A stretch of DNA of 39,784 nt from a virus, in the IMG/VR virus record IMGVR_UViG_3300037540_000073, positions 1 through 39,784 of that record; one strand, 5' to 3'. A program made the position numbers and the translations under genes. This document shows, piece by piece, positions 6,525 through 39,784 of this stretch (within the stretch, counting starts at the first letter, position 1; every line of letters starts with the position of its first letter). Under the pieces are notes generated by a model. That model saw nothing but the letters and a program-made list of their open reading frames with translations, was not told where the DNA came from and did no database searches.

Positions 6525-6781
6525 TTCACCTTATAATAAATTGAGTTTAACATCTGTTTCATTTCTTTAGTATCAACTTTCTGCTCTCTGATATGCTCAT
6601 TTAGCTTTCTGTGAATCGTGATTGACATCCCTTTAACATCATCCTTATGCTCTGCGATATCCTCAGTATTCTCTTTAATCTTAGCGTTTTGCTCTCCAGC
6701 CCCATAAATAACCGTGCCTGCGAATATTAAAGCGGTTAAAATTACACCCCACAATATTCGATTACCTACTTTCTGTGTCAT
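6521..6781 (-). CDS. Membrane-anchored coiled-coil protein, 86 aa
   Basis: One hydrophobic span near residues 11-27 (ILWGVILTALIFAGTVIYG) is followed by a charged helical tail with heptad-like spacing, so the protein probably sits in the inner membrane with a coiled-coil tail. The ATG at 6781 has GAGG six bases upstream. Earlier ATG codons at 6787 and 6793 and a TTG at 6805 lie in the same frame inside the portal gene. Its place just after the portal gene is odd for a lysis gene. It could be a holin-associated protein or a minor virion component. Function unassigned. Confidence 0.55.
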   Translation of the reverse strand: MTQKVGNRILWGVILTALIFAGTVIYGAGEQNAKIKENTEDIAEHKDDVKGMSITIHRKLNEHIREQKVDTKEMKQMLNSIYYKVK

Positions 6782-9257
6782 CTGCATCCTCATGTTTAAT
6801 GTCAATAGTGCCGTCTGTGTTCTTTTTTACCGTTGAATTCTGCTTTTTAGGTATTATATTATCAATTTTCACATTAACAGGATTGGAAGCTATCACCTTT
6901 GCCAGCTCTGCCATTTGCCCAGAAAATTCTTGCCTTAAACTAGTGATTTCCCCGTTCAAACCATCTTTCAACCCGTCAAAATGGGTTTGTGTGCCAGCTC
7001 GGTTTTCTTCTGATTTCTGGTTATTGAGATTATCTTGTAGCTGATTGTCAAGCTTTTTTAATTCTAATTCATGTTTTCGCTCGGCTTCATCCATTTTGAA
7101 TCGAAGCTCTTTTTCTTTCGCCTTAGCTTCAGAAACGACTTTCATTCTCTTAGTCTCATTATCATATTCAGTATTAGCGTTCTGCTCTTCCGCGCTCAAG
7201 TCTTCATTCTCTATTTTCTGAGTTTCGTTAGACTTGTCAACTTTCATTGCTTGGTTTTCTTCCATCAACTGCTGAACCTGTGCAGTTAATTCATGGATGA
7301 CTTGATTCATTTGCTGCTCTTCCGGAGAAGGACCAGCTTTTTCATCATCATCAAGCTTCAAATCAGGATATTTCATTTTGATAAATGATTTAATCCTTAC
7401 AGCTAATTTATCCGCACCTTCCCAATCATGAGTTTTAATGAATTCATCAGCCAGAATTTCCCTAAGTTCAGGAGCACCACCAAAAAGAGCCTCCATTTCC
7501 TCACGCTGCTCAATTCTCTTTGTTTCGGCAGATGGTTGCATTGTGTAGGTAACATCAAACTTCCCTTGATTCATGTCATAAGTAACCTCATTTCCTTCAC
7601 GGTCTTGAGTGAGTTTATTAATCCAAATAACTTGTTCCTCATCATCCTCACCAATCATTCTTACTTGACGAGCTTTGTCATAAACCTTTGGAATCAAATC
7701 ATTTAGAACCTTTCCTTCGAAATCCATTGTACGCCCTAGATTATTAGGAAAATTGAAAGTAACATCAGCAGATTCAGCGGCACCGGCTTGAATAGCTCTT
7801 CCAGACTTTTCGTTTTTAGTATCACCCGTATAAGCTCCATACAAGCCTAATGCGGCATTCATTCCAGCCCCTAGTGATTCTTCCTCAACAACTAAACCAG
7901 CATCAACATCAACGCCCTGCATTCTATAAGGTTGAAAATGAGACTTACCATCGGCTGTCATTCCTTTTACACCAATAGAAGGCCAGTTCCGGACGTTTGC
8001 TGTATCTAATTTCTTTTTGTTTTTCTTAGAAACTGAATCAGTATCATAAATAATTGACTGTTTAGGGCTAAGCGCAATCCTTTCTAATTTGTTGTTTTTA
8101 ACGTAATTATACGCTTTTTGCCATGATTGAATTGCTCTTGACATTCCTTCCATGTGGACTTTGCCATCTGAACGGGTAACATGCCCAAGGACTCTAAAAA
8201 CAGGAATCCAATAGCCAGGCCATGAAATATGTTCAATAATCTTCTTTCCAACTAATTTGCAGCGGTGGACCTGTCTTGATTGGGATTTCCTGGTAATATA
8301 TTCACCTTCATCATCAGTATCCATGAAATCTTCATGCTCAAACGGTGTGCCCTCAACAGCCTTTTTCAGGTCTTTTAAGAACATTCCTTCACCGTCACGC
8401 TTTCCAATCTCTTCTGGTACGTTTGCTTGTAACCATTCCGACTGCTGTTCAGGAGCCAATTCAGGGGGAACAACGTCTTCCAAGGTTATTTGAACCAATG
8501 TCTCTGGTTTTTCCTCAACATACCACCATTCATTGATTGAAGGGCTTTCATGTGTTCCCCAACAAGTTCTTTTTGTTTCATCGCCAACAGCGTTTAAATC
8601 GTTAGTTTCTGACCAATCTTTCCAATCTTTCCCGGTTAATTTCTTGAATTCATTATCCGATATCTCTTTATTGAAGATTGTCTTCATGTTATCAGAACCA
8701 TTTAACTTTGTAGATTGTTCGTCAAATAGTACTGTTGTTCCATCTGGTATTTCACGATATTTCACATCATGATTAAAGCTTTGAGGATTCTCAAACTCAG
8801 TATCAAACCTATAAAACCCATATCCTGCAGTTGTTTGCTGTTTAACAGCCGACATCCTAGCATCAACAGCCCCAGTATTTCTCTCGATATACTTTATCTG
8901 GCCAGCCCGGATTTTTGCTAGTTCAACATCTGAATCACTATCAGCAGCATTGACTTTCAAAGCCGGCCTCATCTTCATTATCCCGTTTATTGTTTTTATA
9001 ATAAGGGGCGAGCTGATGTCAAATACTAATGTTGGACGAGGAGGGAGAGGGGTCTCCGTTCCGGACCGGCCAGACGATCTTCGTTCTTCTTTTGCTGTTT
9101 TATCCCACTGGTCTTTCATCCAGGTGAACTGCATATCATATTTATGCTTTTCATGATGAGTTGCCCAGAAGCAATCCATCTTTTCCCAATGTTCCTCAAA
9201 CTTTTCTATCAGTTTAGTGTTTGCGGAGTCTTTCTTATATTCTGGCATTAATTGCAT
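6762..9257 (-). CDS. Portal protein, P22 gp1 family
   Basis: An 831-aa protein that fits the P22-type portal in length (P22 gp1 is 725 aa), N-terminal pattern (FEEHWEKMDCFW...W-KDQWDKTAKEERRSSGRP-like, then a SPLIIKTINGIMKMRPALKVNAAD segment) and position directly after TerL. The dodecameric portal forms the DNA entry channel and binds terminase and the gp4-type adaptor. The C-terminal 200 residues are a long Glu/Gln/Lys-rich coiled coil, like the P22 barrel but more charged. GGAAGG lies seven bases before the first ATG, one base after the TerL stop. Confidence 0.9.
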   Translation of the reverse strand: MQLMPEYKKDSANTKLIEKFEEHWEKMDCFWATHHEKHKYDMQFTWMKDQWDKTAKEERRSSGRSGTETPLPPRPTLVFDISSPLIIKTINGIMKMRPALKVNAADSDSDVELAKIRAGQIKYIERNTGAVDARMSAVKQQTTAGYGFYRFDTEFENPQSFNHDVKYREIPDGTTVLFDEQSTKLNGSDNMKTIFNKEISDNEFKKLTGKDWKDWSETNDLNAVGDETKRTCWGTHESPSINEWWYVEEKPETLVQITLEDVVPPELAPEQQSEWLQANVPEEIGKRDGEGMFLKDLKKAVEGTPFEHEDFMDTDDEGEYITRKSQSRQVHRCKLVGKKIIEHISWPGYWIPVFRVLGHVTRSDGKVHMEGMSRAIQSWQKAYNYVKNNKLERIALSPKQSIIYDTDSVSKKNKKKLDTANVRNWPSIGVKGMTADGKSHFQPYRMQGVDVDAGLVVEEESLGAGMNAALGLYGAYTGDTKNEKSGRAIQAGAAESADVTFNFPNNLGRTMDFEGKVLNDLIPKVYDKARQVRMIGEDDEEQVIWINKLTQDREGNEVTYDMNQGKFDVTYTMQPSAETKRIEQREEMEALFGGAPELREILADEFIKTHDWEGADKLAVRIKSFIKMKYPDLKLDDDEKAGPSPEEQQMNQVIHELTAQVQQLMEENQAMKVDKSNETQKIENEDLSAEEQNANTEYDNETKRMKVVSEAKAKEKELRFKMDEAERKHELELKKLDNQLQDNLNNQKSEENRAGTQTHFDGLKDGLNGEITSLRQEFSGQMAELAKVIASNPVNVKIDNIIPKKQNSTVKKNTDGTIDIKHEDADDTESR

Positions 9258-16516: not shown

Positions 16517-16740
16517 TCTATTTCTTCCATCACCTTACTGCATGGCAAACCAGTACATTGATCCGCAATCACTTCTTCACCGCTTATAGTGCAGACTCCG
16601 ATTTGCGCCACTTCACCATCTTCGTCAACCTGCTCAAAGCGTAATTCACTGATACGAGCGCAAACGTGGCGGTCATAAAGTATCTGAGCTTCGGTCATTG
16701 TGTCTTCTTTATCTGGGAGGCGGTTTAGTGTTCTTCTCAT
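16513..16740 (-). CDS. Hypothetical small protein, 75 aa
   Basis: A 75-aa acidic protein with four cysteines, including CTGLPC near the end. GAGGT lies seven bases before the ATG, which overlaps the radical SAM stop by four bases; an internal ATG (residue 15) is an alternative. Local base composition is richer in G+C than the neighbours. It is the immediate downstream partner of the radical SAM enzyme, which may be relevant. I recognise no family. Confidence 0.55.
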   Translation of the reverse strand: MRRTLNRLPDKEDTMTEAQILYDRHVCARISELRFEQVDEDGEVAQIGVCTISGEEVIADQCTGLPCSKVMEEIE

Positions 16741-17681
16741 GATTTTACCTCATCAGATAATATCGCATTTCCACAAGTTATGCGGCTCAAATCCTCTTCA
16801 TTGCTTGCAATAAATACTAACGTTTCATACCCCGCCTTTTTGAACTTTTCGTCTAATTCTTGATAAGGTTCTGGATTTGTATAATCACCTTCTGTTTTAA
16901 TATCAGCTTCCAAAGCGGTTTTTGTCTTGTGCATTGGTGTGAGTTTGATTATGTAATTTCTAGGGTTAAACCACGGAAGAAGTTTTTCCGGTTCGACGTC
17001 ATAATCTGCAACGGCAAAATTAAGTGTTATTTTCCTCCCAACAGGGGAAGAGCACGAATCCATTAAATTACCAATAGAAGGTAAAGGCATAGCGTTTCCG
17101 TTAAACATTATATCCCTTTCAATAGGGTTTGTTGAATTAATCGACAGTTGAAGCCCTGCATTTCCTTCATAAACTTCATTCTTTACTTTCATCCAATCCT
17201 GAAGAAACTTAACGAGATTATTATTTTTCTTAGGCATCATAGTCGAAACTACAGGGTGGACAGTATGACTTAGATTCTCAGCAAACCACTTTGCAGCACG
17301 AATAACGTCATAGTTCCATGTCGGTTCACCCATTCTCGCAAAGTGGATATTTAATCTGTCAGAATACTTTATATCAGGATGTAATCTTAATCCTGTTATT
17401 ACTTGATTTATTAAGTCAAACCCAGTTGCATTTTTCCCCGAACCAACTTTAGGAACATCACAGAAGTTACAGCCCATCGAACACCCATATTGCGTTGAAA
17501 CAGTTATTACCCATTTTTTCGATAAAGGGAGAAGCTGTAATCCATCAGGAACTATTTTATTTTGGTTTAGATTAACATCTTTCCCATAATCCCCTAAAGA
17601 AAGGCACTCTAACTTACCATTATCGCCATCAACTATTAGTATGTCTCCAGTTGGAACGGTTATTCTTTTTAATATTTTCAT
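16737..17681 (-). CDS. RlmN-like radical SAM enzyme
   Basis: A 314-aa protein that follows the core of RlmN, the methyltransferase that makes 2-methyladenosine in 23S rRNA and tRNA. The radical SAM cluster is C67-S-M-G-C71-N-F-C74 inside an ITVSTQYGC context. MGEPTWNYD matches the SAM-binding MGEPL-N segment, VVSTMMP and LQLSINS match later strands, and ITC303GN matches the C-terminal Cys region (E. coli Cys355). The position of E. coli Cys118 is Thr60 here, and the N-terminal accessory domain of RlmN is missing. The ATG at 17681 has GAGGG six bases upstream, inside a folded leader. Confidence 0.75.
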   Translation of the reverse strand: MKILKRITVPTGDILIVDGDNGKLECLSLGDYGKDVNLNQNKIVPDGLQLLPLSKKWVITVSTQYGCSMGCNFCDVPKVGSGKNATGFDLINQVITGLRLHPDIKYSDRLNIHFARMGEPTWNYDVIRAAKWFAENLSHTVHPVVSTMMPKKNNNLVKFLQDWMKVKNEVYEGNAGLQLSINSTNPIERDIMFNGNAMPLPSIGNLMDSCSSPVGRKITLNFAVADYDVEPEKLLPWFNPRNYIIKLTPMHKTKTALEADIKTEGDYTNPEPYQELDEKFKKAGYETLVFIASNEEDLSRITCGNAILSDEVKS

Positions 17682-17687
17682 TTTTAC

Positions 17688-17776
17688 CCTCAATCGTTGG
17701 GCCTCAGTGCGGATTGAGGTACGCACCGAACGGGCGTGTTGCCCTGACCCATTAAACTTTTATCAAACCCTCAATC
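17688..17776 (-). promoter_or_regulatory. Folded leader RNA controlling the radical SAM ribosome binding site
   Basis: Order on the minus strand: GATTGAGG copy 1 (17769-17776), 18 nt, stem P1 GGGTC/GGCCC (17746-17750 with 17699-17703), hairpin P2 GGGC-AACAC-GCCC (17732-17744), 5 nt, stem P3 GTGCG/CGCAC (17722-17726 with 17707-17711) with loop TACCTCAATC (17712-17721), then 3 nt, GATTGAGG copy 2 (17688-17695), 6 nt and the ATG. CCTCAATC in the loop is complementary to both copies. Pairing with copy 2 makes a pseudoknot that hides the ribosome binding site. Pairing with copy 1 would free it. A near-identical design stands at 21717-21809. Confidence 0.75.
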
Positions 17777-17786
17777 TGATTCATAT

Positions 17787-17815
17787 AACTTACTATCCAT
17801 TCAATACACTGTCAA
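17787..17815 (-). promoter_or_regulatory. Probable promoter of the radical SAM / lysis operon
   Basis: A perfect TTGACA (17810-17815) is followed after 17 bases by TAAGTT (17787-17792), a weak -10. The spacer carries TTGAATGG just before the -10, as at the other early promoters. The weak -10 suggests help from an activator or an alternative hexamer nearby. It would place copy 1 of the leader motif close to the RNA 5' end. Confidence 0.5.
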
Positions 17816-19844: not shown

Positions 19845-19958
19845 TTAAATATTCACCTTCTTAATTATCTCAGCAATCCCTTTCTCATACTCTTCAGCAG
19901 ATGGATTCTTTTCTATCAATTTCCGTTTGTAGTATTCGTACCAGTCGTTTTTGCTCAT
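19845..19958 (-). CDS. Hypothetical mini-protein, 37 aa
   Basis: A 37-aa charged helical protein (SKNDWYEYYKRKLIEKNPSAEEYEKGIAEIIKKVNI). The start overlaps the stop of the DnaB-like gene (TAATG) and has AAGGAG six bases upstream, so translation right after the helicase is likely. It could be a helicase or loader partner, as often encoded next to phage helicases. That is inference from position. Confidence 0.55.
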   Translation of the reverse strand: MSKNDWYEYYKRKLIEKNPSAEEYEKGIAEIIKKVNI

Positions 19959-20869
19959 TAGAACTCCTTATTTGGTGGTTTAACTGATTCATCACAAGAA
20001 CGATAATTTCCACTACCCGGGATAAACTCAAAATAAGCCTCTCCAATTTTCCCATAATGCCTGTTTTTGATTTTCTTGACGTTTGCTTTAACAATTAATT
20101 CCATTCCATTCTCATAATTTCGCTCAATTATTATCCCATTATCGGCTTTATTATACCAATGTTGGGATCCAGAAATGTCGTACATACTCAAAGAAGGATA
20201 ATTCCCGTCCTTTTTTCTTCCAATTTTTGCAGGATGAGCGACTATCCAGAAAGAAATGTTGTGTAATCTGGCAAATTTCCTGATTCTTTTCAGAGATTCC
20301 CCGATATACTCGGTCTCAGTCATGTTTGAGGGCTTGAAAACCTCTAACTCATTCCATGGGTCAATTATCACCATGTCAGTTTTCTTTCCCATAATCAGCT
20401 TAGAATGTTGTGCGGTAAAGAGAATGGAATCTAAATTATAATCATCAGTTCCGGCATCAATAAAGCTGAAATTAGAATCAACAAAATCAAGTCCCTTTTC
20501 AAGCTCATCAGCCGTTAATTCTGGAAAGTTCAACTTCCTGTGGCATTGCCTATCCATTATCTTTTCCACTAATTTCATTTTATGGAATTCAATAGGATAA
20601 TTTTCAGGACTAAAAAACAAAGTATTCCAATTCTCTCTTTTCGCTAAATTACAAGCCATCGCCTCAATCCATTCTGATTTACCGGATCCCGGGAAACCTG
20701 TTAAAATATTCAGTTGCCCTTTCAATAAAGTGAAATACTTATCGAATGAACGCCATCCAGTAGACGTTCCTTTCGGGATCCCATGTTTGAATATTCTCCG
20801 GCATTGTTCCCGGGTTTGAGTTTTATCATCCAGTTTGCATGATTTCTCATATAATTCTTTCATGTTCAT
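19958..20869 (-). CDS. DnaB/Twinkle-like replicative helicase domain protein
   Basis: A 303-aa protein with a RecA-type ATPase core. G-W-R-S-F-D (about 38-43) leads to L-x-G-Q-L-N-I-L-T and Walker A G58-F-P-G-S-G-K-S65. An LFFSPENYP segment follows, then Walker B TDMVIIDPWNEL near 165-176 and a WIVAHPAK motif 3 region. This matches the DnaB/Twinkle C-terminal helicase without primase or full N-terminal domain, shorter than DnaB (about 470 aa). It should unwind the fork. The initiator-like gene is immediately upstream with a four-base overlap. Confidence 0.85.
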   Translation of the reverse strand: MNMKELYEKSCKLDDKTQTREQCRRIFKHGIPKGTSTGWRSFDKYFTLLKGQLNILTGFPGSGKSEWIEAMACNLAKRENWNTLFFSPENYPIEFHKMKLVEKIMDRQCHRKLNFPELTADELEKGLDFVDSNFSFIDAGTDDYNLDSILFTAQHSKLIMGKKTDMVIIDPWNELEVFKPSNMTETEYIGESLKRIRKFARLHNISFWIVAHPAKIGRKKDGNYPSLSMYDISGSQHWYNKADNGIIIERNYENGMELIVKANVKKIKNRHYGKIGEAYFEFIPGSGNYRSCDESVKPPNKEF

Positions 20870-21555
20870 GGTTGAACCTTCTTTGGCTGATATCCTTTAA
20901 AGGAATTCTTTAAAAAATCATAGTTCTTTAAAACCGACCGATAAGTACAAGAGACTTCAGGCCAGATTCTTTTATGCTCAGAAACAAGTTTAATTAATCT
21001 ATCCCGGGTAGCCTGTTTTAGTTTCAAATCCCTGACAACAGCTCCAAGTGATTTCTTTTCTGCTTTGGTCTTTGGATCCAGACTCCATATTTCACAAACG
21101 GCATCCCAAATCTCATTTTTTGCCGGAGGCGGTAATTCACTTCCCTTCTCTTCACTTCTCTTCTCTTCCGACAAGTGGTTATTTGTTGCCTGCACATGAC
21201 TGTCATCTGTCGGGCATATGTCCGTCATGTGACCGTCACTATCAGGATATTTGCTCTTTTTACTTCTTAAACGCTGTTTGAAGTCGATAATCTCAATATA
21301 TGGCTTATCTTTTACCATGTAACGTATTATTAACCCTTTTTTAATACATTCAGTCATCCACTCATCAATTTTCTTAATTGTCAGTTTATCTTTTAATGGA
21401 TAAGCTCGATTCTTTATAATTAACGACCGTCCGTCAAAACGACCATAATCATCAGCGCAAAGCATTAGGCGAACAAAAAAGATTTCAGCACCATTACTTA
21501 ACGTATCTATTTTATCAGAGTCTAAAAACCCTTCTCTGATTAATCTTGTTGGCAT
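20866..21555 (-). CDS. Phage replication initiator-like protein
   Basis: A 229-aa protein. Its first 90 residues (LIREGFLDSDKIDTLSNGAEIFFVRLMLCADDYGRFDG) form the winged-helix domain seen in many phage replication proteins that sit before a DnaB-type helicase or DnaC-type loader. A Glu/Lys-rich linker near 125-140 leads to a C-terminal helical domain. Together with the downstream helicase it should start phage DNA synthesis. An origin may lie in its own gene, as in lambda O, but no iterons are obvious. It overlaps the 56-aa gene by 16 bases. Confidence 0.75.
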   Translation of the reverse strand: MPTRLIREGFLDSDKIDTLSNGAEIFFVRLMLCADDYGRFDGRSLIIKNRAYPLKDKLTIKKIDEWMTECIKKGLIIRYMVKDKPYIEIIDFKQRLRSKKSKYPDSDGHMTDICPTDDSHVQATNNHLSEEKRSEEKGSELPPPAKNEIWDAVCEIWSLDPKTKAEKKSLGAVVRDLKLKQATRDRLIKLVSEHKRIWPEVSCTYRSVLKNYDFLKNSFKGYQPKKVQP

Positions 21556-21710: not shown

Positions 21711-21716
21711 TTGAAC

Positions 21717-21809
21717 CTCACATTCATGGGGGCTTTGTGTAGGAATGTGAGTAACTACACAAATTAGGCGGGTGCCGACCCCTTTTAAATTTAAAACTAT
21801 CTCACATTC
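21717..21809 (-). promoter_or_regulatory. Folded leader RNA controlling the replication operon start
   Basis: Order on the minus strand: GAATGTGAG copy 1 (21801-21809), 18 nt, stem P1 GGGGT/GCCCC (21778-21782 with 21729-21733), 1 nt, hairpin P2 GGC-ACCC-GCC (21767-21776), 5 nt, stem P3 TGTGTAG/CTACACA (21755-21761 with 21736-21742) with loop TTACTCACATTC (21743-21754), then after P1 3 nt, GAATGTGAG copy 2 (21717-21725), 6 nt and the ATG. CTCACATTC in the loop is complementary to both copies. The design and most spacings equal those of 17688-17776, although the paired sequences differ. Confidence 0.75.
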
Positions 21810-21823
21810 AAGTTTCAACCCCT

Positions 21824-21852
21824 ATTATAGCCATTGATTTCAGCATTGTCAA
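21824..21852 (-). promoter_or_regulatory. Consensus sigma-70 promoter of the replication operon
   Basis: Perfect TTGACA (21847-21852) and perfect TATAAT (21824-21829) with a 17-base spacer ending in AATGGC. Transcription would start about seven bases downstream, just before copy 1 of the leader motif. A promoter this strong suggests that expression is limited later, by a repressor or by the leader fold. The -35 box overlaps the end of the 61-aa gene. Confidence 0.85.
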
Positions 21853-22034
21853 GGGCTTATTTGGTTATTTTTGTTGAGACCATCGAAATCATACACAATT
21901 CCCGTTCCATTGCATGATTTGCACGTTTCTGGTGACGTACTAGTCGAACTGTATGTTGGCATTCCGGGGTTACTGTAAAATCCATTAGGCACTAATCCTG
22001 TTCCCTGACACACAGGGCATTTATATACACTCAT
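21849..22034 (-). CDS. DnaJ-type zinc-ribbon small protein, 61 aa
   Basis: Two CxxCxGxG repeats, CPVCQGTG at 6-13 and CKSCNGTG near 38-45, as in the DnaJ cysteine-rich domain, with a Ser/Thr/Pro-rich loop between. Such stand-alone zinc proteins are common in phages. Their function is unknown. GGAG plus GGA precede the ATG. The 27 bases at its start are a copy of those at the next gene boundary (22226-22252). Confidence 0.75.
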   Translation of the reverse strand: MSVYKCPVCQGTGLVPNGFYSNPGMPTYSSTSTSPETCKSCNGTGIVYDFDGLNKNNQISP

Positions 22035-22057
22035 CCTTTCTCCTTAATCATTAAATT
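22031..22057 (-). repeat. 27-bp ribosome-binding-site repeat, copy 1
   Basis: The 27 bases at 22031-22057 are identical to 22226-22252. Both contain AAGGAG and the start codon of the following gene. In copy 2 the sequence also encodes the last residues of the 74-aa protein. In copy 1 it is non-coding. The 56-aa gene lies between them, so the copy arose when that gene or its neighbour was inserted. Confidence 0.8.
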
Positions 22058-22058
22058 A

Positions 22059-22229
22059 TTATGGGTGCACACTCAAAATTGAATAAGTAGACAGAACTTC
22101 CCCATCTTCCCAATCAAACTCTTCATGAATATCTTCGACCTCTTCAATACAACCGTCCCTATCCAAAGTCACGACTGCTTTTTCTGTGACTGTTCTGGTT
22201 ATTTTCGCTATTACTCTTCTCGGTTTCAT
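22059..22229 (-). CDS. Hypothetical small protein, 56 aa
   Basis: A 56-aa protein: basic start (KPRRVIAKITRTVTEKAVVTL), then an acidic region (EEVEDIHEEFDWEDGEV). AAGGAG plus GGA lies before the ATG, which overlaps the stop of the 74-aa gene. It is bracketed by the two copies of the 27-bp repeat, which marks it as a possible recent insertion. No family recognised. Confidence 0.55.
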   Translation of the reverse strand: MKPRRVIAKITRTVTEKAVVTLDRDGCIEEVEDIHEEFDWEDGEVLSTYSILSVHP

Positions 22230-22252
22230 CCTTTCTCCTTAATCATTAAATT
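22226..22252 (-). repeat. 27-bp ribosome-binding-site repeat, copy 2
   Basis: Identical to 22031-22057. Here the bases both finish the 74-aa gene and supply AAGGAG and the ATG of the 56-aa gene. This is the likely original copy because it is coding. Confidence 0.8.
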
Positions 22253-25804: not shown

Positions 25805-26014
25805 ATGATATTAAAAATAAATAACTGCCCCTTTTGTGGTAGCGATAAAGTAGAATTCAAATGGGGATCTTTCCTAGCTCACGGCAAAGTGGTCTGTATG
25901 GATTTTAAAAAAGGCTGTTGTGCTATCGGACCTGAAGAGATGTATAAAAAATACGACAATGAGGAAAGAATGATTAACAGAGCTATTAAGAAATGGAATA
26001 AGAGAATAATTTAA
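25805..26014 (+). CDS. Lar-like restriction alleviation protein
   Basis: A 69-aa protein with the Lar pattern: CPFCGSD at 8-14, a later CMDFKKGCCAIGP with the second Cys pair, then a helix and the final A-x3-K-W-N-K-R. Lar of the Rac prophage reduces cutting by type I restriction enzymes. Many phage members are only known by this zinc-ribbon form, so protection from restriction is likely but not proven. AGGAGAAGG precedes the ATG. Early rightward expression fits a defence-evasion role. Confidence 0.7.
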   Translation: MILKINNCPFCGSDKVEFKWGSFLAHGKVVCMDFKKGCCAIGPEEMYKKYDNEERMINRAIKKWNKRII

Positions 26015-37719: not shown

Positions 37720-38212
37720 CTTTTTTCTCCTTCCATTCGGCAAAAGCTTTCAACTCTTTCCCCTTGTTTGGTCCACCAGCAATAAGAGCTTTTTCGCCGG
37801 TTTCCTTTTCATATTCTTCAATTAAAACTTCATCAGACGGTTTTTTTAGTTCGTCATTTTCGGCAGTAACTTTCCGGACTATTTCAGACATTCTTGACAT
37901 CTGGTCGTTTGAATCATGAACCATCTTCTTTAATTCAGATATTTGGCTTTTTAATTCAAATACTTCACCGCCTGAAATCCCTGCTGCACTATTCAATTTA
38001 GCATTGCCAGCCATAATCTCTTCCCTGCGCTCAAATATTGATTTAACTTCAGGAACGCTTTCAATCATATCCTTAACGTCTTTACATCCGGAAACAATAA
38101 ACCCCTTTTTCACGGCGTTTAAAAATTCCTTCTCGGTTTGGACTTTCATGAAATCAGTATCTTTGACTGAAGACTTCCCGCCCTTGAATAATGTTCTTGG
38201 TAAATAACTCAT
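37712..38212 (-). CDS. Coiled-coil head-module protein, 166 aa
   Basis: A 166-aa protein. A basic start (SYLPRTLFKGGKSSVKD), then a helical, charged region, a coiled coil near 83-125 (VFELKSQISELKKMVHDSNDQMSRMSEIVRKVTAENDEL) and an acidic end. AGGAG precedes the ATG. It follows the glycosyltransferase gene with eight bases between. It could be an assembly factor or virion glue. Not assigned. The truncated copy is at 1-150. Confidence 0.65.
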   Translation of the reverse strand: MSYLPRTLFKGGKSSVKDTDFMKVQTEKEFLNAVKKGFIVSGCKDVKDMIESVPEVKSIFERREEIMAGNAKLNSAAGISGGEVFELKSQISELKKMVHDSNDQMSRMSEIVRKVTAENDELKKPSDEVLIEEYEKETGEKALIAGGPNKGKELKAFAEWKEKKDA

Positions 38213-38220
38213 TTGTTCTC

Positions 38221-38994
38221 CTAATTATTGATTAATTGGTTAATTCTTAAACCTGTAGAAGCTTTCGATCCTCCAGGTTGTTTTAGTAAATATTCGTGAA
38301 AGTTTCCTTTAAATTCATGATATCCCACATGAGAAACATCTATATTGTGGTAAATCCATATATTAATGCTAGCTTCAGTGCATTTTGTACAAAAATCATA
38401 ATCTTCACCCAACCAGTCCCATGTTCCATTTGATTCTTGAACTATGTGAGTGTCAGTGAATTGTGTCCCCGTGCTGTTTACATGTGGGAGTTTATGAAAA
38501 GTTCTTATTTTATCAAAAACTTCTCTCTTTATTATTACCAAAGCCAACCCTATTCTATGGGTAGAAATAAGACCATCTTTTTCCACAGGCTTTAAACTAA
38601 ATTCATTATCAACATTTACTTTTATTGCATACGTTTCCTCCATCTGTTTTTGTCTCACAGCAGCAGCAATAAACATTTTATCCTTGTAAAGCATTTCTAA
38701 TATTTTCTCATGATCGAACCCTTGATCAGCATCATTCATTAAAATATGTGTACAGTCGGTTTTTAAGAATTCATTAATAAGCATATTCCTCGCCCTGTCA
38801 ATAAACCCGCAGTATTTCGCAAACATTAACTTTGATTTAATCCCTTTCGACTGTAGCAAGAGCATTAAATTAGTAACAGCTGCAAAACAGTTTGTAGTCG
38901 GCTTACCGTCATAAGTTGGAATCCCTATGAACAGATAAGGAGCCTCAACCCCATCACTGGAATTGAGACTCTTATTATCGTGATTGATTCGCAT
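38221..38994 (-). CDS. GT-A-type glycosyltransferase-like protein (right copy)
   Basis: A 257-aa protein, the second version of 160-939. It has N87-D-A-D where the left copy has D87-D-A-D, so the minimal D-A-D metal motif is kept. Other changes are few until the last 15 residues, where sequence and length differ (KASTGLRINQLINN here). The 3' non-coding spacer also differs. Same function as the left copy expected. AGGAG and TAATG coupling are conserved. Confidence 0.75.
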   Translation of the reverse strand: MRINHDNKSLNSSDGVEAPYLFIGIPTYDGKPTTNCFAAVTNLMLLLQSKGIKSKLMFAKYCGFIDRARNMLINEFLKTDCTHILMNDADQGFDHEKILEMLYKDKMFIAAAVRQKQMEETYAIKVNVDNEFSLKPVEKDGLISTHRIGLALVIIKREVFDKIRTFHKLPHVNSTGTQFTDTHIVQESNGTWDWLGEDYDFCTKCTEASINIWIYHNIDVSHVGYHEFKGNFHEYLLKQPGGSKASTGLRINQLINN

Positions 38995-39224
38995 TATACG
39001 TCTGCAACCGTGCCTTTAACGGTTAACCCTGCGACTATAGCGTTTATAGCTACATTCTGGGCATCCACTAAAGCCGTGATTCCATCGACTGTAATACCGG
39101 CTGATATGATACTAATATTGGCTATCTGAGCCGATACCTTCCCATGCTCTCCGCATTTCTGAGCGGCGGTTTGATTTATGCTCGAACCGTCATCATTCAT
39201 TTTTGATAAGTATTCAATTGACAT
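38994..39224 (-). CDS. Small conserved head-module protein, 76 aa (right copy)
   Basis: Differs from 939-1169 at residues 2, 62 and 63 only (Ser for Ala; Ile-Val for Met-Ile). Starts with ATG after AAGGAG and overlaps the glycosyltransferase start. Function unknown. High conservation next to a variable gene makes it a useful contrast. Confidence 0.75.
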   Translation of the reverse strand: MSIEYLSKMNDDGSSINQTAAQKCGEHGKVSAQIANISIISAGITVDGITALVDAQNVAINAIVAGLTVKGTVADV

Positions 39225-39233
39225 TTTATCTCC

Positions 39234-39557
39234 TTAAATTGTTGGATTGTTTGAAACAGGTAATTCAGATTTAATTCGATACCCTGTCCATTCTTCATTA
39301 GCCGTAGCTGTTGGTGTTGAACCATTAGCTATGAATTGAATAGATAAAGTGTTTACAGCGGTAACAATCGCCATCGGATTATAACTTAAATCTGTTTGCT
39401 GTGTTGGTTTTCGTACAAGTACTACATCACCGATTTGAAGCCCTGGAACAGTGACGGTCTGCGCAACAATATTATCGTCTGTTGTCGCATCCCATGTTTT
39501 ATCTGCTCCAAAACTAAAGGCTTTTATAGCAATTATATTTCCTTGAGTTGCACCCAT
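39234..39557 (-). CDS. Variable small beta-rich head protein, 107 aa (right copy)
   Basis: The same length as 1179-1502 and about 69% identical in protein. The ATG at 39557 has AGGAGGGG directly upstream. An open frame reaches 39587 but overlaps the coat gene and is not needed. Substitutions are spread over the whole protein with clusters at residues 2-30 and 80-101. Conserved positions are as in the left copy. Confidence 0.75.
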   Translation of the reverse strand: MGATQGNIIAIKAFSFGADKTWDATTDDNIVAQTVTVPGLQIGDVVLVRKPTQQTDLSYNPMAIVTAVNTLSIQFIANGSTPTATANEEWTGYRIKSELPVSNNPTI

Positions 39558-39565
39558 AACCCCTC

Positions 39566-39784
39566 CTAATCGCCGTGAACGATACAAGCGTGATCAGGTC
39601 GTAGATTACCCCAACCCCAAACAGCATCACAACGGAGCATTTGAGTGTCATTAGTCCCATCATAAGAACCATAACCAACACGGATCTGAATACCGTTATA
39701 GTTAATTATCCTATGTACTGTTCCTTTGGGTTTAGGCAGAGGAACGGAAACTAGCGTATAGGCTTCTTTGTCATACACAACGTT
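39566..39784 (-). CDS. Coat protein C-terminus, partial (right copy)
   Basis: The last 72 codons of the P22-type coat protein, cut by the window edge. Protein is identical to the end of 1515-2726 where both can be read, while several bases differ. The conserved end with RIINYNGIQIRVGYG and DHACIVHGD lies here. It shows that the contig closes on itself. Confidence 0.85.
   Translation of the reverse strand, partial: NVVYDKEAYTLVSVPLPKPKGTVHRIINYNGIQIRVGYGSYDGTNDTQMLRCDAVWGWGNLRPDHACIVHGD

Follow-up and report, generated by a model that had tools for sequence, protein, structure and literature searches.

The closest described systems are the phage antisense RNAs C4 and CI. RNase P frees the C4 RNA, whose b' loop masks ribosome binding sites (PMC5320573), and CI of P4 is an antisense RNA that acts on two sites, seqA and seqC, and shuts off the replication genes in the lysogen (PMC4825925). 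In P1 and P7 (Rfam RF01695; c4-a1b1, RF03163) C4 controls icd/ant. In the annotated P1 record the C4 RNA stands between an upstream pair of sites, a1 and b1, and a second pair, a2 and b2, that precedes icd. The b2 site (GTTAGTGA) and the Shine-Dalgarno (SD) sequence GTGAGG overlap, and the third C4 helix carries the complement of b2 as its loop. P4 CI is the leader of a replication operon in which seqA is followed by a folded RNA that displays seqB in the loop of a hairpin, and then by seqC adjoining the SD. P4 immunity also involves premature termination of transcription in the lysogen. The detector that we applied to the DNA under study found TTCACAGG upstream in P4, its complement in the loop of a GCCGG hairpin, and TTCACAGG again adjoining AGGAGG. 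The same triple of b1, loop b' and b2 near the SD was present in 12 of the 13 true C4/CI loci examined, P1 and P4 included.

We analysed a window of 39,784 nucleotides, the virus record IMGVR_UViG_3300037540_000073, which encodes P22-like head genes (portal, scaffold, head closure and terminase) and has its genes mostly in minus orientation. Two minus-strand leaders (leader 1, 21809-21708; leader 2, 17776-17679; Table 1) share one layout: b1, a three-way junction of stems P1, P2 and P3 with b' in the P3 loop, b2 over the SD, 6 nt, and ATG. The loop b' is complementary to both b1 and b2, over 9 nt in leader 1 and 8 nt in leader 2. The first-pass annotation had described leader 1 as two copies and three stems behind a perfect promoter, with the ribosome binding site in the second copy and a P3 loop that is an exact nine-base complement of both; every one of these elements is present. 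The second leader that it placed at 17688-17776, with the same layout and other paired letters, is also there, with an 8-nt code but a weak promoter. Of its spacings, the distance from copy 2 to ATG stood, and the P2-P3 spacer needs a small correction, being 2-3 nt and not 5 when P3 is counted as 8-9 bp. The linker from b1 to P1 is 18 nt and A/T-rich in leader 1 and 17 nt in leader 2. In both leaders b1 lies 49 nt from b', b' lies 16-17 nt from b2 and no nucleotide separates P3 from P1'; b2 then follows P1' after 3 nt in leader 1 and 2 nt in leader 2. Earlier gene starts, through open frames that cross both leaders, were considered and rejected; the radical SAM homologues begin at the downstream ATG.

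Table 1 Elements of the two window leaders and the genes behind them
Feature	Position	Strand	Sequence	Basis or remark
Leader 1 promoter	21824-21852	-	TTGACA, 17 nt, TATAAT	consensus match 12/12
Leader 1 -35	21852-21847	-	TTGACA	
Leader 1 -10	21829-21824	-	TATAAT	
Leader 1 b1 (copy 1)	21801-21809	-	GAATGTGAG	exact triple
Leader 1 P1	21778-21782; partner 21733-21729	-	GGGGT; partner GCCCC	core minimum-energy fold and covariation
Leader 1 P2 hairpin	21767-21776	-	GGC-ACCC-GCC	core fold and covariation
Leader 1 P3 hairpin	21734-21763	-	TTTGTGTAG-TTA-CTCACATTC-CTACACAAA	core fold and covariation
Leader 1 b' (P3 loop)	21743-21751	-	CTCACATTC	exact triple; complement of b1 and b2
Leader 1 b2 (copy 2)	21717-21725	-	GAATGTGAG	overlaps ribosome binding site
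Leader 1 start codon	21710-21708	-	ATG	6 nt after b2
First ORF behind leader 1, 56 aa	21540-21710	-		no family
Replication initiation protein	20866-21555	-		leader 1 operon, after the 56-aa ORF
DnaB-like helicase	19958-20869	-		leader 1 operon
Leader 2 promoter-like sequence	17787-17815	-	TTGACA, 17 nt, TAAGTT	weak; direct reading, absent from promoter scan
Leader 2 b1 (copy 1)	17769-17776	-	GATTGAGG	exact triple
Leader 2 core	17698-17751	-	P1 TGGGTC/GGCCCA; P2 GGGC-AACAC-GCCC; P3 TCGGTGCG/CGCACTGA	core fold and covariation
Leader 2 b' (P3 loop)	17712-17719	-	CCTCAATC	exact triple; loop is TA-CCTCAATC
Leader 2 b2 (copy 2)	17688-17695	-	GATTGAGG	is the ribosome binding site
Leader 2 start codon	17681-17679	-	ATG	6 nt after b2
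Radical SAM-like protein, phrog_24834	16737-17681	-		behind leader 2; start codon is that of homologues

The family of the gene behind leader 2 has no function given and at least 170 relatives in viral contigs; in two contigs (L006 and L009) another short leader, with a promoter, operator-resembling repeats and a terminator-like hairpin, precedes the radical SAM gene. Directly upstream of the leader 1 promoter is a 61-aa ORF with DnaJ-like cysteine motifs (21849-22034, minus strand). A 27-nt exact direct repeat, TCATCCTTTCTCCTTAATCATTAAATT on the plus strand, occurs at 22031-22057 and 22226-22252, at two ribosome binding site regions, and an ORF at 25805-26014 (plus strand) encodes a restriction alleviation protein Lar-like product (Pfam PF14354). 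No clear sign of a temperate lifestyle was found for the window phage. Over 1.7 kb the window ends (1-1730 and approximately 38063-39781) align in the same orientation with 90.7% identity; this is no exact terminal repeat but either a tail-region module present in duplicate or an assembly in which two strains were merged.

Within the window, only the two leaders contain a triple in which a word of at least 8 exact letters is followed by its reverse complement and then by the word again. A stricter scan, in which the complement must sit in a hairpin loop closed by a stem of at least 7 pairs, gave 0.01 matches per shuffled window at k=8 (400 dinucleotide shuffles), against the two observed. At k=7, with an SD and a start codon also required, the expectation was 0.0125 per shuffled window, again over 400 dinucleotide shuffles. 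When the cores were folded without copy 1, the P1/P2/P3 junction with b' open was both the minimum-energy and the centroid structure in both leaders, with loop bases unpaired at probabilities of 0.73-1.0 and fold z-scores of -3.6 and -3.0 for the two cores.

Relatives of the window phage provided further leaders. Alignment of the helicase led to contig L327, whose helicase is 59% identical to that of the window. One leader in this contig, at 6596, reads AAAGTTGAG / CTCAACTTT / AAAGTTGAG and precedes a 90-aa ORF at 6700; another, at 7217, reads AGTTGGAG / CTCCAACT / AGTTGGAG and stands at the start of a likely replication-initiation gene (a weak replisome-organizer match), after which the helicase comes next. 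In the leader at 7217, b2 lies between the likely SD and the ATG and not on the SD. Homology between leader 1 and the L327 leader at 6596 is visible in plain sequence, with a mean column identity of 80%; the two agree at 21 of 29 positions in linker and junction columns and at only 18 of 34 in helix columns, yet every helix pair is preserved. A covariance model (R1) was built from these two and used to search 1.1 Mb on both strands at E<=5. The only further matches were the other three leaders (E of 0.002, 0.09 and 0.18). The fifth leader lies in contig L330, before an HNH endonuclease. Five leaders are thus present in three phage contigs, with promoter-like sequences upstream of those in L327 and L330.

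Close relatives of the window phage are scarce in the collections searched. No leader was found among TerL relatives in viral contigs (80 loci), among radical SAM relatives, in phages with a distant initiation protein, or by blastn and tblastn against isolated phages; a TerL search of genome contigs gave five distant loci and no leader. Triple patterns with the two window codes gave one unrelated match (L181) and chance matches in viral contigs. A second model (R2) gave no match in 398 genomes of one phylum, a weak search in that no positive genome was included.

In the alignment of the five leaders 97.5% of cells pair and 13 of the 17 stem pairs change on both sides, although fitting to the model biases this alignment towards the structure. 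The covariation score was 0.90, against 0.28 in shuffles that leave the kinship of the five sequences in place and at most 0.21 with slid partners. Under hand segmentation all pairs are standard in all five leaders. Furthermore, b1, b' and b2 change in step between leaders (for instance, GAATGTGAG versus AAAGTTGAG). Because helix pairs are kept despite changed letters and the three segments change together, the leaders are a selected RNA, as the first-pass annotation had argued from two examples.

A ligand riboswitch had been considered earlier, and the junction and the sequestration of the SD recall translational riboswitches. Beyond this resemblance nothing favours one: the leaders match no riboswitch family in Rfam, no unpaired core is conserved beyond a few letters, conservation lies mainly in the pairing, and different genes (replication, radical SAM, HNH) follow the leaders, making this reading very improbable. 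A translational operator for a phage or host protein that needs the three-way junction, with the pairing serving only to shape the site, would account for the partial conservation of GGGTC in the P1-junction-P2 part, and structured operators before phage replication genes are known. The T4 gene 32 translational operator, for example, places a pseudoknot close to a replication gene's ribosome binding site (review PMC3014915). The leaders differ from it in having a second identical upstream copy, a three-way junction and no known protein partner. A protein site alone would not explain why the loop letters vary freely, and in step with those of b1 and b2, and we regard such an operator as unlikely. 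Least probable of all are DNA operators, in which the three segments would be repressor half-sites: direct and inverted copies do adjoin promoters, one of them at the replication operon, but the letters are the same within a leader and different between leaders of one phage, the stems around the middle copy covary, and b2 sits at the ribosome binding site. The earlier suggestion of a put-like antiterminator was rejected, no support for it having been found.

Each leader is likely, in our view, to be a compact antisense element of the C4/CI type that serves only its downstream gene, with an anti-SD b' that represses through b2. The leader RNA would fold into the P1/P2/P3 junction and present an 8-9 nt anti-SD sequence in the P3 loop; pairing of b' with b2 would then block ribosome binding, so that the more leader RNA there is, the more strongly the downstream gene (the replication operon or the radical SAM gene) would be repressed. 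The proposal that the loop can hide the ribosome binding site is supported. The leader RNA could act in trans on other copies, as the P1 C4 and P4 CI parallels suggest, and b1, near the 5' end, may compete for b' as a further target identical to b2. Geometry bears on this point. As b2 begins only 2-3 nt past P1', intramolecular pairing seems to need P1 to open and intermolecular pairing does not, which favours trans action; with b2 just 16-17 nt after b', cis pairing is possible too if P1 opens. The structure, the complementarity, the coordinated change and the place over the SD are shown; repression, trans action and any processing are inferences. The predicted cognate b':b2 pairing is approximately -12 kcal/mol in both leaders, against -4 and -8 kcal/mol for the cross pairs, and the two modules should therefore be mostly blind to each other.

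The main rival is a switch or timer that works only in cis during transcription, with no trans RNA and no processing. Here b1 would take b' on the nascent RNA and leave the SD free; P3 would then close and displace b1, and a b'-b2 H-type pseudoknot would finally shut translation. The short b'-b2 distance suits this scheme (65-79 nt in true C4 loci), as does the geometry with P1 open, which is that of an H-type pseudoknot (loops of 2-3, 0 and 8-9 nt). The predicted fold of full leader 1 pairs b1 with b' and leaves the GTGAG part of b2 unpaired. For full leader 2, however, a fold with b1-b' pairing was not predicted, and b1 pairing seems to require P3 to be open: no nucleotide lies between b' and the 3' strand of P3, and pairing of copy 1 with the loop of an intact P3 therefore looks sterically doubtful. 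Switching of one RNA between the two copies is possible. The b1/b'/b2 plan is moreover found in C4 and CI, both of which work as separate RNAs, and on this evidence a purely cis timer appears rather unlikely. In hok-type and MS2 maturation-gene leaders, pairings exclude one another and can set when the SD is exposed; the likeness extends to the cis scheme only, with no common structure or sequence shown. A related and comparably doubtful view is that the leaders form an RNA class of their own, in which the C4 plan arose independently and the self-contained b1/b'/b2 code is a cis co-transcriptional timer re-coded for each gene. If true, a module needing no ligand, protein or processing would have been copied before different genes and re-coded so that modules do not cross-react.

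Comparison with C4 and CI supports the preferred reading of a gene-private antisense element. The earlier statement that the fold matches nothing known does not hold, as the layout and loop geometry match those of the P1 c4 and P4 cI antisense RNAs. As in C4 of P1/P7, b1 is followed by a P1/P2/P3 cloverleaf with b' in the third hairpin loop, and b2 lies at the SD of the next gene, before its ATG. Nearly all of the C4/CI loci examined have 1-2 nt of loop before b' and 0-1 nt after it (2 and 0 for seqB of P4); the window leaders have 2-3 and 0. The replication-operon position of P4 CI is shared by leader 1 and, with a likely replication-initiation gene behind it, by one L327 leader, and not by leader 2.

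The window leaders lack a' between P3 and P1' and the a1 and a2 targets, and the UUCG hairpin and the conserved AUGG...CCACC ends of C4 are missing from the leaders. The P1 helix has approximately 17 pairs in C4 and only 4-7 in the leaders, which makes release of the leader RNA by RNase P uncertain. In P4 the distance from b' is 180 nt for b1 and 71 nt for b2, against 49 and 16-17 nt in the leaders. No RF01695 match was obtained in the window, its leaders included, or in L327 at E<=10, whereas the controls P1 and P4 scored 68.8 and 74.9 bits (cut-off 45 bits), and model R1 in turn does not find true C4 loci. Ordinary C4 RNAs (RF01695) do occur in L326 (approximately 1430-1640) and L325, contigs whose TerL is related to that of the window phage. 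Membership of the Rfam C4 family is accordingly not supported; the anatomy supports the view that in build, and probably in action, the leaders resemble C4/CI. They would extend silencing of the P1 C4 and P4 CI type to a compact form, unrecognised by Rfam, that stands before replication, radical SAM and HNH genes in three phage contigs. With two differently coded modules in one phage, the use of mutually blind anti-SD RNA sets for individual genes becomes testable, and as a minimal C4 plan the leaders would allow the part played by b1 to be studied alone. These leaders are best read as a new family of compact, C4-like anti-SD elements, each private to one gene.
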